Source of the DNA: Deinococcales bacterium
GTDB taxonomy: Bacteria > Deinococcota > Deinococci > Deinococcales > JAAFIG01
NCBI GenBank assembly: GCA_013298595.1
Contig: JAAFIG010000037.1
Span: 1-47,597 of the forward strand
Direction of reading: 5' to 3'
Length of the DNA stretch: 47,597 nucleotides
The notes beneath the pieces were generated by a model. It was not told the origin of the DNA. It saw nothing but the letters and a program-made list of their open reading frames with translations, and ran no database searches. This document shows positions 1-47,494 of this stretch, piece by piece (the stretch's first letter is position 1; each line of letters starts with the position of its first letter). Made by a program: the position numbers and the translations under genes.

Positions 1-938
1 GCACCTTGCCAACCCAAGAATGCTCCAGCGGCTGCCCAGAGTTTGACATCGCCAAAACCCATCGCTGTTGGGTCGAGTTCTTCTTCGGGGATTTCTGGGC
101 TTTCGGTGCTGTTATCAGGAACAATCCACCAGTACACACCAACCAGAATTGCCATAGCTCCCGCAGCTTGCAACGCACCTGAGATACTATTTAAGACGTT
201 TCCACTCGAGGCTTGAATAATAATTGAAATCAGCACACCACCCAGTGTGACAAAATCAGGCATTGGCACAACTTTTTTAGTCACCAAATTGGCAAACATC
301 AAAGCAACACCAGCAATCACACCAGGGATAATGCCAAACCAAACACCAACCAACATAGCAAGATGGATATTCAAGTACCCCAGTGGATAAAACGGATGGC
401 GTGGTTCACGAAACCGTCGCAGCACCCACGAACCAAAAGCAATAATGCTCGAGATTAAACCAGCTCCAAGTAATGCCCCCTCGAGTGCCTTAGAAAATGT
501 ACCAAGCACAACAGCAATCAGTAAACCAACTGCAATTACAGGAATAGTCAGTTCATCTGGTAACTCGAGCGATTCAAAATCTATGGCACTACCAGCTAGA
601 AAGCAGGTGAACATAAAAAATAAACCAGCCACTAGTAATGGATTCTCGAGCAAACCAATTTTCCAAGCAATCAAAAAGTACCCGAGCGCACTGATTGTTT
701 CGATGATCGGGTAACGGCTGGTAATAGGTGCTTTGCAATAACGGCATTTACCGCCTAAAGAAAGCCATGACAACACTGGTACAAGGTCGAGTACGCCAAG
801 CCGATGATTGCATTTTGGGCAACGTGACGGTGGAAAAGCAATACTTTCTTTACGCGGCAAACGATAAATCAGCACATTGGTAAACGACCCAACTAAACCA
901 CCAAGCACTGCTGCAATGATTAATGCAAATGATTCCAC
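1..938 (-). CDS. pilD: Type IV prepilin peptidase (A24), 3' end cut by window
   Basis: Membrane aspartyl protease that cleaves, and usually N-methylates, type IV prepilins and type II pseudopilins. The GTG at 938 gives MESFALIIAAVLGG followed by the family opening GSFTNVLIYRLPRKES. A zinc-type pair CPKC/CRYC lies at residues 40-43 and 65-68. The first catalytic Asp is in AIDFESLELPDELT and the second in GFGDVKL near the window edge. Several hydrophobic helices follow. The end of the gene lies outside the window. The start is supported by a TACGAT -10 box six bases before the GTG, which implies a leaderless mRNA. It is divergent from ctpA, and no pilin gene is visible. Confidence 0.93.
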   Translation of the reverse strand, partial: MESFALIIAAVLGGLVGSFTNVLIYRLPRKESIAFPPSRCPKCNHRLGVLDLVPVLSWLSLGGKCRYCKAPITSRYPIIETISALGYFLIAWKIGLLENPLLVAGLFFMFTCFLAGSAIDFESLELPDELTIPVIAVGLLIAVVLGTFSKALEGALLGAGLISSIIAFGSWVLRRFREPRHPFYPLGYLNIHLAMLVGVWFGIIPGVIAGVALMFANLVTKKVVPMPDFVTLGGVLISIIIQASSGNVLNSISGALQAAGAMAILVGVYWWIVPDNSTESPEIPEEELDPTAMGFGDVKLWAAAGAFLGWQG

Positions 939-944
939 AGCGCT

Positions 945-950
945 ATCGTA
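945..950 (-). promoter_or_regulatory. -10 box of leaderless pilD promoter
   Basis: On the minus strand TACGAT is followed by six bases and then the GTG start. No Shine-Dalgarno is present. No convincing -35 element was found. Confidence 0.5.
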
Positions 951-1037
951 CCTTGTCTGCCTCGAGTTAGGTGGCAATTTTTGGCTTAGTTCTTCTCTAG
1001 GCATTTTGTAACACATTTGCCCTTCAGGTCAGAAGAT

Positions 1038-1043
1038 TAGAAT
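1038..1043 (+). promoter_or_regulatory. -10 box of leaderless ctpA promoter
   Basis: TAGAAT is followed by seven bases and the ATG at 1051. A possible -35 (TTGCCC, 1017-1022) lies 15 bp upstream, which is short. There is no ribosome binding site. Confidence 0.5.
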
Positions 1044-1050
1044 ACACAAC

Positions 1051-2367
1051 ATGAGAATCGAACGTTTTTTACTACCAGCTGTTGTTGTTGCAAGCGCAGG
1101 AGTTTTTAGTTACGCACAATTCTCGGCAGGTAATAACAGCAAAGTGCTAGACAGTGCCAATGGGAAATCTTTGCTTGAAGCCTTAAATGCCCTCGAGCGT
1201 AACCATTTAACCCCTGTCAACCGCGAAAAATTGCTTGAAGGTGCAATTAGTGGCATGTTGTACGCCTTAGATGACCAATTTACGTTTTATATTCCTCCCG
1301 CCGAAGCCAGCACAGGCAGAGAGGATTTACAAGGCGAATTCTTTGGTATTGGTGTGGGTATCAACCCAGCTAATAAAGATGGAACAGGCGTGCTGGTAGA
1401 AACTGTGTACAGTGGTTCGCCAGCGGCTCGAGCTGGGTTATTAGCTGGTGATATTTTATTATCGGCAAATGGCAAAGATGTGACTAAATTACCCCTCGAG
1501 CAGGCTGTGCGTTTGATTCGAGGTCCGAATGGTTCAACAGTTAAACTCGAGGTGTTACGTAATGGTGCAAAAATTACCATTACAGCTACTCGAGCAAAAA
1601 TTCTTAAAGTCACTGTGGAAAGCACTGTTTTACCCGGTAATGTTGGTTATATTTCCTTATCCGATTTTGCCAATCAAAAAGCCACAGAGCAATTACAAAC
1701 CCAATTAAAAACCTTACAAGCTAAAGGTATTAAAGCCCTTATCTTTGATTTGCGTAACAACCCAGGTGGTTTGGTCAACCAAGCCGAAGGCATTGCTGAT
1801 ACATTCCTCGAGCAAGGTGATATTTTTATTACTCGCGGTAAAGATAAAAAAGTGATTGTCGAATACGCCGCTTCTAAACAAAGCTCGGATTTTAAATTAC
1901 CTATGGTGGTTTTGGTCAACGGCTCGAGTGCCAGTGCTTCAGAAATTGTTGGAGCTGCCTTGCAAGAACTTGGTCGTGCCAAAGTGGTTGGCGAGAAAAC
2001 ATACGGCAAAGGTGTGGCGAATATTCCAACACCTTTAAGCAACAACGGTCAAATCAATGTTGCCACAAAAGAATGGCTGACCCCGAAACGCAACAGCTTA
2101 TATCAACGTGGAGTCACTCCAGATTATGTGGTACAAGACACACGTTATGGCAATTTACTAGCTCTCGAAGGGATTGGTGCAAAACCAGGTAGTTCTATTG
2201 AAGTTAAAATCAATGGTAAAACCATCAAATTAACAGCTGATAAAACTGGTAAATTTGTCCACCAAGACACACCCGTTCGCCAGAAGAACTCGAGTATTCA
2301 AGGACAAGCCATTGTGGATATTGCAGCCGATGCCCAGTTGCGTAAAGCCCTTGAGTTACTGAAATAA
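1051..2367 (+). CDS. ctpA: S41 C-terminal processing peptidase (CtpA/Prc)
   Basis: Periplasmic serine protease of 438 aa that trims or degrades envelope proteins from their C-termini. A signal peptide (RFLLPAVVVASAGVFSYAQ) is followed by a short N-terminal helical region, a PDZ domain at about residues 90-170 (GIGVGI...AARAGLLAGD) and the S41 catalytic domain. The Ser/Lys dyad motifs are intact: NGSSASASEI for the nucleophile and GEKTYGKG for the lysine. It is convergent with the phosphate acyltransferase gene, the stops being one base apart. Two divergent S41 paralogues lie downstream on the same strand. Confidence 0.93.
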   Translation: MRIERFLLPAVVVASAGVFSYAQFSAGNNSKVLDSANGKSLLEALNALERNHLTPVNREKLLEGAISGMLYALDDQFTFYIPPAEASTGREDLQGEFFGIGVGINPANKDGTGVLVETVYSGSPAARAGLLAGDILLSANGKDVTKLPLEQAVRLIRGPNGSTVKLEVLRNGAKITITATRAKILKVTVESTVLPGNVGYISLSDFANQKATEQLQTQLKTLQAKGIKALIFDLRNNPGGLVNQAEGIADTFLEQGDIFITRGKDKKVIVEYAASKQSSDFKLPMVVLVNGSSASASEIVGAALQELGRAKVVGEKTYGKGVANIPTPLSNNGQINVATKEWLTPKRNSLYQRGVTPDYVVQDTRYGNLLALEGIGAKPGSSIEVKINGKTIKLTADKTGKFVHQDTPVRQKNSSIQGQAIVDIAADAQLRKALELLK

Positions 2368-46404: not shown

Positions 46405-47196
46405 AATACTTAACAATCGTGCATTTAAGTCATTATAGAAAGTCAAATCGTGATCTTCAATTTTGATGTAATGCCATAAAACTGGGGCATCTATTAAAGT
46501 CCCAGAACGAGGTAATTTATTTAACCAAAACAAAAACATTGCTATCGTATTTTCATCATACTGACGATAAAAAATACCCTCATCTGGCAAATCTGAAAAA
46601 TAACCGTCTTTCTTACTATTAAAAACAATTCCCAAATTATTAATCACGATAAAATCGAATTGTTCATGTTTTGGTGTTTGTTCTTTAACGTAAAAATCAA
46701 CAATTGTTTTGATCAAATCCCTGATATTTTTGTAAGTTTTGTTTGCAAAAATAAAAGTAGGAAGTCTTTTTATAGCTTCAACACTAAATTTAGGAAAACT
46801 CAGATCAATGCCATTCTTAACTCGAGTCAATTGTTTTACGGATACAATTTGCCTTAATGCACGGTGTATCTCGTCACTTCTACCCAAGTCAGGTTTTACT
46901 TCGATAGCAAAATCAACGCCATCTACAAATATAAGCGAATATTTATCATCATTAGAAACAGTATATGGATGACAAGGATTTAAAACTAAGCAATCAATTG
47001 ATTGGCTTTTTTTGCCTAAACTATCAATTACACCCCCTTTAGCAATACGAAATGGGAATGGAAAATATTTTTCAAGAAATTTTTTTACAACGGCTTCTCG
47101 TCTATCTGATATTTCCTGAGGTGTACCCTTACCTTCAATAGACGCTGTTTTAAATGCGGCTGTAATGTCATTTGCCTCAATATGCAGAAGCTTCAT
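46399..47196 (-). CDS. DUF6602 protein with PD-(D/E)XK-like nuclease core
   Basis: Protein of 265 aa. GKKSQSIDCLVLN (Asp) and DFAIEVKPDLGRSDEIHRAL (Glu-x-Lys) give the D...EVK spacing of PD-(D/E)XK nucleases, preceded by RREAVVKKFLEKYFPFPFRI then AKGGVIDS, as in DUF6602 proteins. Gene is AT-rich. The open frame runs on through tRNA-Gly and is not credible there. ATG 47196 is taken; GTG 47208, six bases after TATAAT, is an attractive leaderless alternative. A defence or mobile-element role is possible but unproven. Confidence 0.75.
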   Translation of the reverse strand: MKLLHIEANDITAAFKTASIEGKGTPQEISDRREAVVKKFLEKYFPFPFRIAKGGVIDSLGKKSQSIDCLVLNPCHPYTVSNDDKYSLIFVDGVDFAIEVKPDLGRSDEIHRALRQIVSVKQLTRVKNGIDLSFPKFSVEAIKRLPTFIFANKTYKNIRDLIKTIVDFYVKEQTPKHEQFDFIVINNLGIVFNSKKDGYFSDLPDEGIFYRQYDENTIAMFLFWLNKLPRSGTLIDAPVLWHYIKIEDHDLTFYNDLNARLLSIE

Positions 47197-47213
47197 CAAA
47201 TCGGTCACAAAAA

Positions 47214-47219
47214 CATTAT
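47214..47219 (-). promoter_or_regulatory. -10 box for the DUF6602 gene
   Basis: Minus-strand TATAAT, six bases (GTTTTT), GTG at 47208. It lies about 35 bases beyond the tRNA 3' end. Confidence 0.5.
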
Positions 47220-47253
47220 ACCCCCAAGCTTCTGCTCGAGGGGTCTTTATTTT

Positions 47254-47329
47254 TGGAGCGGGAGAAGAGATTCGAACTCTCGACATCAACCTTGGCAAGG
47301 TTGCACTCTACCAGCTGAGTTACTCCCGC
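47254..47329 (-). tRNA. tRNA-Gly (GCC), CCA encoded
   Basis: The minus strand gives acceptor GCGGGAG/CTCCCGC, D arm AACTCAGCTGGTAGAGT, anticodon arm CAACCTTGCCAAGGTTG with anticodon GCC, and a T arm with GTTCGAATC. The discriminator U is followed by CCA at 47256-47254. It follows 5S rRNA on the same strand as in the Thermus 23S-5S-tRNA-Gly operon. Confidence 0.97.
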
Positions 47330-47494
47330 ATTCCATATTCTTTTTGTTCTTCTCGAGTTCTTGGTGTTCTCGAGCTTTGATTGTACTGCTTGTGTGGTTG
47401 TTTTTCAACTAATTCTTCTGTTCTTATGTTTCTCGAGCTAGTATCTTCTTTGTTCTTCTGTTTTGTTCTACTCGAGCTTTCTCGAGATAATAAA
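47330..47494 (-). other. 5S-tRNA-Gly spacer, purine-rich in RNA, five CTCGAG
   Basis: No gene. The transcribed strand product is rich in AGAA/GAAC runs and carries five CTCGAG sites in about 140 bases. Two of them form a hairpin CTCGAG-AAAG-CTCGAG (47471-47486). It may guide processing of the rRNA-tRNA precursor. Confidence 0.6.

Follow-up and report, generated by a model that had tools for sequence, protein, structure and literature searches.

HIP1, a highly iterated palindrome (HIP) of cyanobacteria, has remained unexplained for decades. In the parts of PMC4390886 drawn on here, HIP1 (GCGATCGC) and the alternate HIPs are described only in cyanobacteria, as palindromic words that are outliers in over-representation, occur genome-wide and are distributed clade-wide with lineage-specific losses; the density of HIP1 is 300–2,700 copies/Mb in most cyanobacteria outside group C1, and that of the alternate HIPs is generally 1,000–2,000/Mb. 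The present work deals with the hexamer CTCGAG in a bacterial DNA stretch of 47,597 nucleotides (contig JAAFIG010000037.1), called here the window and meaning the whole stretch that was analysed, and in its host genome (G000). The data support the view that a Deinococcota-like lineage has in CTCGAG a highly iterated palindrome, HIP1-like in its behaviour but with an XhoI-type sequence. An earlier sequence-only reading of the window had proposed this, and the proposal is borne out by the presence of the word genome-wide, in all frames and in spacers, by its conservation at fixed positions and by its age in the order. CTCGAG is a strict chromosomal word, which is subject to a uniform push at the DNA level, keeps its positions and excludes further copies at short range.

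The same features, a palindrome, outlier over-representation and a genome-wide and clade-wide distribution with losses, unite CTCGAG with HIP1. The differences from HIP1, as it is presented in those parts of PMC4390886, are a length of six bases with 67% GC, a density of ~6,000/Mb, about two to twenty times that of HIP1, a host that is probably not a cyanobacterium, and a cognate methyltransferase that was not found in the superfamilies searched. Our searches of openly licensed literature found no report of CTCGAG hyper-abundance in bacteria.

The established DNA uptake sequences have cores of 9–10 bp that are not known to be palindromic. Like CTCGAG, those of Pasteurellaceae and Neisseriaceae form thousands of conserved short genomic words spaced more evenly than random, and their mismatched forms show graded over-representation, as far as the portions of PMC1939737 used here describe them. 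CTCGAG differs from them as a strict palindrome whose density is several times theirs. The methylated RAATTY pattern of Campylobacter is a palindromic hexamer able to label self DNA for transformation; it is degenerate and A+T-rich, whereas CTCGAG is neither and its methylation is putative. The restriction-modification systems XhoI and PaeR7I read the same hexamer, but an XhoI-family endonuclease is absent from the CTCGAG-rich genomes of the two families, f1 and f2, considered below.

Abundance of CTCGAG

The window contains 263 of these self-reverse-complementary hexamers, which form a strandless array (205..47486) with a mean spacing of ~180 bp; the first copy begins at 205 and the last occupies 47481–47486, while base composition predicts 9.2 copies. 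Six of them, also without strand, lie in the non-coding first kb (205..966; starts 205, 448, 480, 564, 645 and 961). The host genome (4,582,226 bases in 68 contigs, 94.4% complete) has 27,159 copies, one per 169 bases, and its group of uncultured bacteria has about one per 165 bases; the initial impression of an excess of tens of fold, with six copies in the first kb, holds far beyond the window. The reversed word GAGCTC has 15 copies in the whole genome.

A 425,292-base sample of G000, composed of 20 stretches and the window, includes 2482 CTCGAG against 45 predicted by a first-order and 178 by a second-order Markov model. When the motif is masked, the second-order prediction is 38 and the excess 66-fold; among all 64 palindromic hexamers, the runner-up has a ratio of 1.46 and the median lies at 0.39. 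CTCGAG, a genome-wide outlier as HIPs are, is the sole strongly over-represented palindromic hexamer, most others being avoided, and the leading hexamers apart from it are mostly words that overlap it. The outcome set beforehand as fatal to the proposal, a Markov-like count or an equal enrichment of words of the same composition, is clearly absent, and other palindromes are not enriched. A maximal-order Markov null (213 predicted in the window) was rejected: it makes CTCGAG look unremarkable because its 4- and 5-mers inherit the excess.

Some other words also have unusual frequencies. In the G000 sample the non-palindromic AAACCA/TGGTTT is 4.4-fold above base composition. Many palindromes are strongly avoided in the samples of G000 and its relatives G005 and G006: ATGCAT, GAGCTC and TTCGAA are mostly <0.06 of expectation (TTCGAA 0.11 in G006), and GGCC, at 0.01 of expectation in G000, occurs 14 times in the 425 kb of that genome, three times in 92 kb of G005 and twice in 80 kb of G006. 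G007 avoids GGCC less strongly, and G003 does not avoid it.

Action at the level of DNA

The gene model of the window has 41 coding sequences (CDS), and 355 CDS were predicted in the G000 sample. As had been read from the sequence, the word occupies genes in every frame and intergenic DNA as well: 223 copies in the window are in CDS (126, 60 and 37 in frames 0, 1 and 2) and 40 are intergenic. In the sample, coding DNA carries 6050 copies/Mb and intergenic DNA 4911/Mb, with 1250, 490 and 344 copies in the three frames. Where the amino acids permit CTCGAG, it is present at 1250 of 1841 Leu-Glu positions (68%), 490 of 785 [SPTA]R[EDGAV] positions and 344 of 924 xS[SR] positions. Near start codons its density drops (4116 and 3521/Mb in two 20-base bins).

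Codon usage falls far short of producing these numbers. The CDS hold 2084 copies, whereas synonymous shuffling within genes leaves 220 (the maximum of 20 shuffles was 250) and resampling of motif-masked codon usage gives 78; the word thus exceeds codon usage in all coding frames and is also present in non-coding DNA, as is typical of HIPs. The ln odds ratio over background is 3.5–4.2 in intergenic DNA (three nulls), 3.68 in frame 1, 3.84 in frame 2 and 4.78 in the Leu-Glu frame. Because these values are similar in all frames and in spacers, the acting force hardly notices coding.

This DNA-level force bends both codon use and protein sequence. The dipeptide Leu-Glu (LE) is at 2.32 times expectation in G000 and Glu-Leu (EL) at 1.02 times, and the LE/EL ratio is 2.15, 2.40, 2.43, 2.41 and 1.94 in the CTCGAG-rich genomes G000, G005, G006, G007 and G001 against 1.12 in G004, which has no excess. 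The earlier statements that Leu-Glu is usually written CTC GAG (126 of 193 pairs in the window), and that TTA and GAA prevail overall (495 of 1506 Leu and 526 of 762 Glu codons), were confirmed. The claim that CTC and CGA are rare outside the motif was wrong, since 109 of 239 CTC and 113 of 173 CGA codons of the window lie outside CTCGAG.

Conservation, decay and spacing of sites

In 35 kb aligned between G000 and G005 at 75% identity, 146 of 224 CTCGAG are identical (65%), compared with 22% of anagram hexamers, a threefold difference; the corresponding values are 43% and 12% for G000/G006 and 54% and 18% for G005/G006. G000/G005 sites that are not identical differ at three bases more often than controls do (0.35 vs 0.15) and at one base less often (0.26 vs 0.44); part of this reflects the three-base distance between TTA GAA and CTC GAG.

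Taken together, variants one base away from CTCGAG stand at 1.25 times background. Only the three that arise by a transition are clearly raised (1.77–2.44 fold), those that arise by a transversion being at 0.48–1.19 fold, so the graded mismatch excess of uptake sequences is not seen. This is the picture expected of a strict six-base word that decays mainly by transitions, and it lacks the halo of an uptake sequence. A signature of 5-methylcytosine (m5C) deamination was not found either, C>T at position 3 or 1 being not above T>C at position 2.

Occupancy of amino-acid-permissive positions, binned by the distance to the nearest other CTCGAG, is 0.04–0.15 below 12 bp, 0.21–0.36 at 12–20 bp and 0.31–0.61 at 20–45 bp; at 60–220 bp it reaches 0.72–0.85 for the LE and R sites and 0.44–0.61 for the S sites. 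A deficit of CTCGAG pairs below ~20 bp is observed in G000, G005 and G006. Hairpins in mRNA or repeat slippage were considered as its cause and rejected, since inverted- and direct-repeat hexamer controls show no such deficit, except for inverted repeats <12 bp in G006 (0.57–0.66).

Distribution in the order

The comparison set consisted of 111 genomes of the order, in all of which CTCGAG was counted. Densities per genus were obtained from 81 of them, the 30 others being mostly of family f5 plus four of f3. The four genomes of family f1 have 5,927–6,456 CTCGAG/Mb, and the G+C of their samples is ~45, 50, 52 and 59%. In family f2, genus g5 has 6,248 and 7,731/Mb, g4 3,566/Mb and g6 (G004) 296/Mb. 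After correction for amino acids and motif-free codon usage, for which the samples were small (3.8–59 kb, some of them only a few kb), the excess in CDS is 17–28 fold in the two further f1 genomes that were sampled, 21 in G003 and 5.3 in G001; elsewhere it is 11–15 in g24, 4.5–6.8 in g12 and 3.2 in g10. The Thermus-like genus g13 has a value of 0.7, and G004 one of 0.1. The excess is thus found widely across the order, with its extremes in f1 and g5, and is lost or reversed in other lineages, a clade-wide distribution with sporadic loss (G004 and genus g13), as in HIPs. These data support an ancient origin of the excess in the order.

G004 avoids CTCGAG, with 2 copies in CDS against 17 expected, though its near relatives are saturated; an XhoI-family endonuclease was not found in this genome.

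The leucyl-tRNA synthetase (LeuRS) gene of the window (6487..8931, plus strand) served for placing the genome and as an anchor for orthologues. The best match of its product is 1h3n (811 bits), followed by 743 bits for the best other family member, 6q89. For a purine nucleoside phosphorylase from genus g13, the match to 6tk9 scores 545 bits vs 262 for the next entry; the matches of a thiolase from that g13 genome were not informative. We take 1h3n and 6tk9 to be Thermus thermophilus entries. The order is probably the Thermus group, and the CTCGAG carriers would be distant, Deinococcota-like relatives of Thermus. It seems that the order includes culturable Meiothermus-like bacteria with a milder excess, namely genus g12 with 1,387–3,072 CTCGAG/Mb. 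All HIP cases in the cited parts of PMC4390886 have a cyanobacterial host, which the LeuRS match suggests is not so here.

Methyltransferases and restriction enzymes

With regard to METHYLTRANSFERASES and restriction, G000 carries two PF02384, two PF01555 and one PF00145 locus. At L001 (534–2958, G000 contig C11), a gamma-type methyltransferase adjoins a type II endonuclease-like protein, whose gene matches the PADLOC model REase_II PDLC03405. At L003 (1399–3245, contig C34), an N6/N4 methyltransferase adjoins a NotI-like endonuclease (PF12183) and follows an open reading frame (ORF) that is presumably MetK-like. Beside the methyltransferase of L004, two small ORFs (1890–2617, minus strand) have no family match in NCBIfam or PADLOC; we take them to be XisI- and XisH-like. 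L001, L003 and L004 were rejected as keepers of CTCGAG, having no close relative in other rich genomes. Within the set of proteins compared, L002, a 1264-aa frame, has a relative (36%) in no genome but G003.

The C5 methyltransferase L005 is the best shared. Its kin are present in G005 (80%), G003 (62%) and G097 (61%) and absent from G006, G007 and G001, and its carriers, 4 of the 111 genomes, all have a CTCGAG excess. The top-listed plasmid relative (58%) adjoins an HpaII-family endonuclease, and on account of this resemblance CCGG appears a likelier target of L005 than CTCGAG. CCGG is avoided in the G000 sample (101 copies, 0.09 of the composition expectation). Given the HpaII-linked relative and the absence of L005 kin from G006, G007 and G001, this enzyme was also rejected as a keeper.

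No group common to all rich genomes was found among PF02384 proteins fetched from eight f1/f2 genomes, a comparison of 38 loci selected from the methyltransferase matches, one match having no locus. More generally, no PF02384, PF01555 or PF00145 methyltransferase of G000 is common to all CTCGAG-rich relatives tested, PF02086 and other classes lying outside the search. The suggestion that CTCGAG is the target of a solitary methyltransferase thus gains no support within these three superfamilies: the best-shared candidate looks CCGG-specific, and decay of the m5C type is missing.

The XhoI family (PF04555) was detected in 4 of the 111 genomes (G012, G013 and G014; broken in G108) and in none of the rich f1/f2 genomes, which show neither the cognate endonuclease nor the site avoidance expected of a restriction target. 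In G012–G014, the endonuclease adjoins an N6/N4 methyltransferase (loci L371, L372 and L373, respectively) to which none of the N6_N4 enzymes in the f1/f2 comparison is closely related. These three genomes have 695–974 CTCGAG/Mb vs 1,655–1,966 in their congeners G009–G011, which lack the family, and restriction therefore lowers the CTCGAG count. The contrast represents a natural experiment on site avoidance.

Interpretation

In our opinion, the results as a whole are best explained, with a rough probability of 0.45, by a chromosomal word that is kept by a DNA-level preference through a strict dimeric putative protein engaged in DNA maintenance or exchange. A symmetric and very sequence-strict chromosomal protein would recognise CTCGAG, and the preference would exist because this protein reads the word. 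An extra copy within ~20–45 bp would add nothing or hinder. The likeliest job would be genome-wide maintenance or exchange of DNA, where the word would mark self or parental strands during repair, recombination or transfer, and would not be transcription, translation or restriction.

Several points weigh against this explanation. Both the protein and the methylation state of CTCGAG are putative, and selection is not separated from biased repair or transfer. Exclusion in intergenic DNA is clear only below 12 bp (3 pairs vs 11.1 expected) and absent at 12–60 bp; the longer-range exclusion may therefore be special to genes. Pair distances show no 10.5-bp helical phasing. Occupancy drops again beyond 220 bp from the nearest CTCGAG, which may reflect heterogeneity caused by foreign DNA. 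Between G000 and G005, lost sites are not offset by gains close by (26 of 84 within 60 bp vs 24.4 at random), and nearby compensation is weak between G000 and G006 (17 of 44 vs 10.9).

In the model of Elhai for HIPs, a solitary methyltransferase would modify CTCGAG, and methyl-directed mismatch repair or another reader would create and keep the sites. The shape of the word, a strict 6-bp palindrome, is usual for a methyltransferase target. In the portions of PMC4390886 used here, all cyanobacterial genomes with strongly over-represented sequences had a putative methyltransferase that could modify these; moreover, a Dam-like PF02086 enzyme or one of another class would have escaped our search, as would one lost in the gaps of 58–97% complete genomes. 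Nevertheless, the confinement of L001, L003 and L004, the patchiness of L005, the lack of a common protein among the PF02384 sequences fetched and the balance of C>T and T>C changes make such a mark rather unlikely. If competence machinery or recombination favoured CTCGAG-bearing DNA, the word could spread by molecular drive, as the uptake sequences of Haemophilus and Neisseria do. This would agree with the uniform drive in coding and non-coding DNA, the conservation, the scarcity in foreign-looking islands and the uneven presence in relatives, and Thermus is naturally transformable. A site per ~165 bp seems far denser than uptake requires, and there is no mismatch halo beyond transitions, unlike known uptake sequences as described in the cited portions of PMC1939737, so we regard an uptake or recombination tag as improbable.

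We give still less credit to an architectural role, in which an abundant protein would bind CTCGAG as a site of the nucleoid or of chromosome folding, although density is constant over G+C of 45–59% and sites exclude each other at short range. Architectural proteins usually tolerate degenerate sites, while CTCGAG is strict and without helical phasing. The hexamer is the XhoI/PaeR7I site, but the distribution of PF04555, present in so few genomes and in no rich one of f1/f2, together with the lower counts of its carriers G012–G014, led us to reject XhoI-type restriction-modification as the cause, and its chance is negligible. It is equally hard to believe that the excess comes from a common bias in codons or composition, or from artefacts of assembly or adapters. 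CTC and GAG do meet in G+C-rich genomes, which may account for part of the excess in G+C-rich relatives; the shuffle, frame/spacer and orthologue controls refute these explanations, since synonymous shuffles fall short by ~9- to 27-fold, all frames and spacers are affected, and orthologous positions are conserved between separate genomes.

A bolder version of the explanation by a dimeric reader is offered only tentatively: CTCGAG might be a HIP with no need of a methyltransferase. A putative strict dimeric protein would read it directly as the ancient label of self DNA in a bacterial order, and the word would be near-saturated (about two thirds of the possible Leu-Glu sites), proteome-reshaping and sterically exclusive. 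If true, it would represent a new kind of genome-wide chromosomal recognition system. In any event, this is an independent and several-fold denser HIP case in a lineage probably outside cyanobacteria, with close relatives that lack the excess and with the usual methyltransferase partner apparently missing, and the lineage allows models of methylation, repair, uptake and architecture to be tested against one another. The strength of the DNA-level signal on codons and dipeptides matters for codon-usage and phylogenetic models.

The rRNA spacer and motif-poor islands

At the right end of the window, five CTCGAG (47352..47486, strandless) lie between the genes of tRNA-Gly (47254–47329, minus strand) and 5S rRNA (47498–47597, minus strand), in agreement with the earlier mention of the word inside an rRNA spacer. 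The neighbouring copies in this spacer are an exception to short-range exclusion. The pairs 47352/47369 and 47471/47481 could each form a 6-bp stem and hence small stem-loops, as judged from the unfolded sequence.

Just 1 of 159 genes of at least 900 bases lacks CTCGAG, and nine of the ten longest CTCGAG-free stretches have a G+C content of 0.31–0.39. Seven of eight scanned island proteins match families (polysaccharide synthesis, glycosyltransferase, HEPN, FG-GAP, UvrD-like, E2/ThiF/JAB and eCIS_core), and one matches none. These CTCGAG-poor, foreign-looking islands may be recent arrivals. A survey for CTCGAG-dense viral contigs gave no lead: among at least 120 stretches, the strongest (L330) is a poly-serine frame and the rest are mostly G+C-rich. 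A protein of 1571 residues with an eCIS_core domain (L019, 6446–11161) overlaps a CTCGAG-poor stretch of low G+C.

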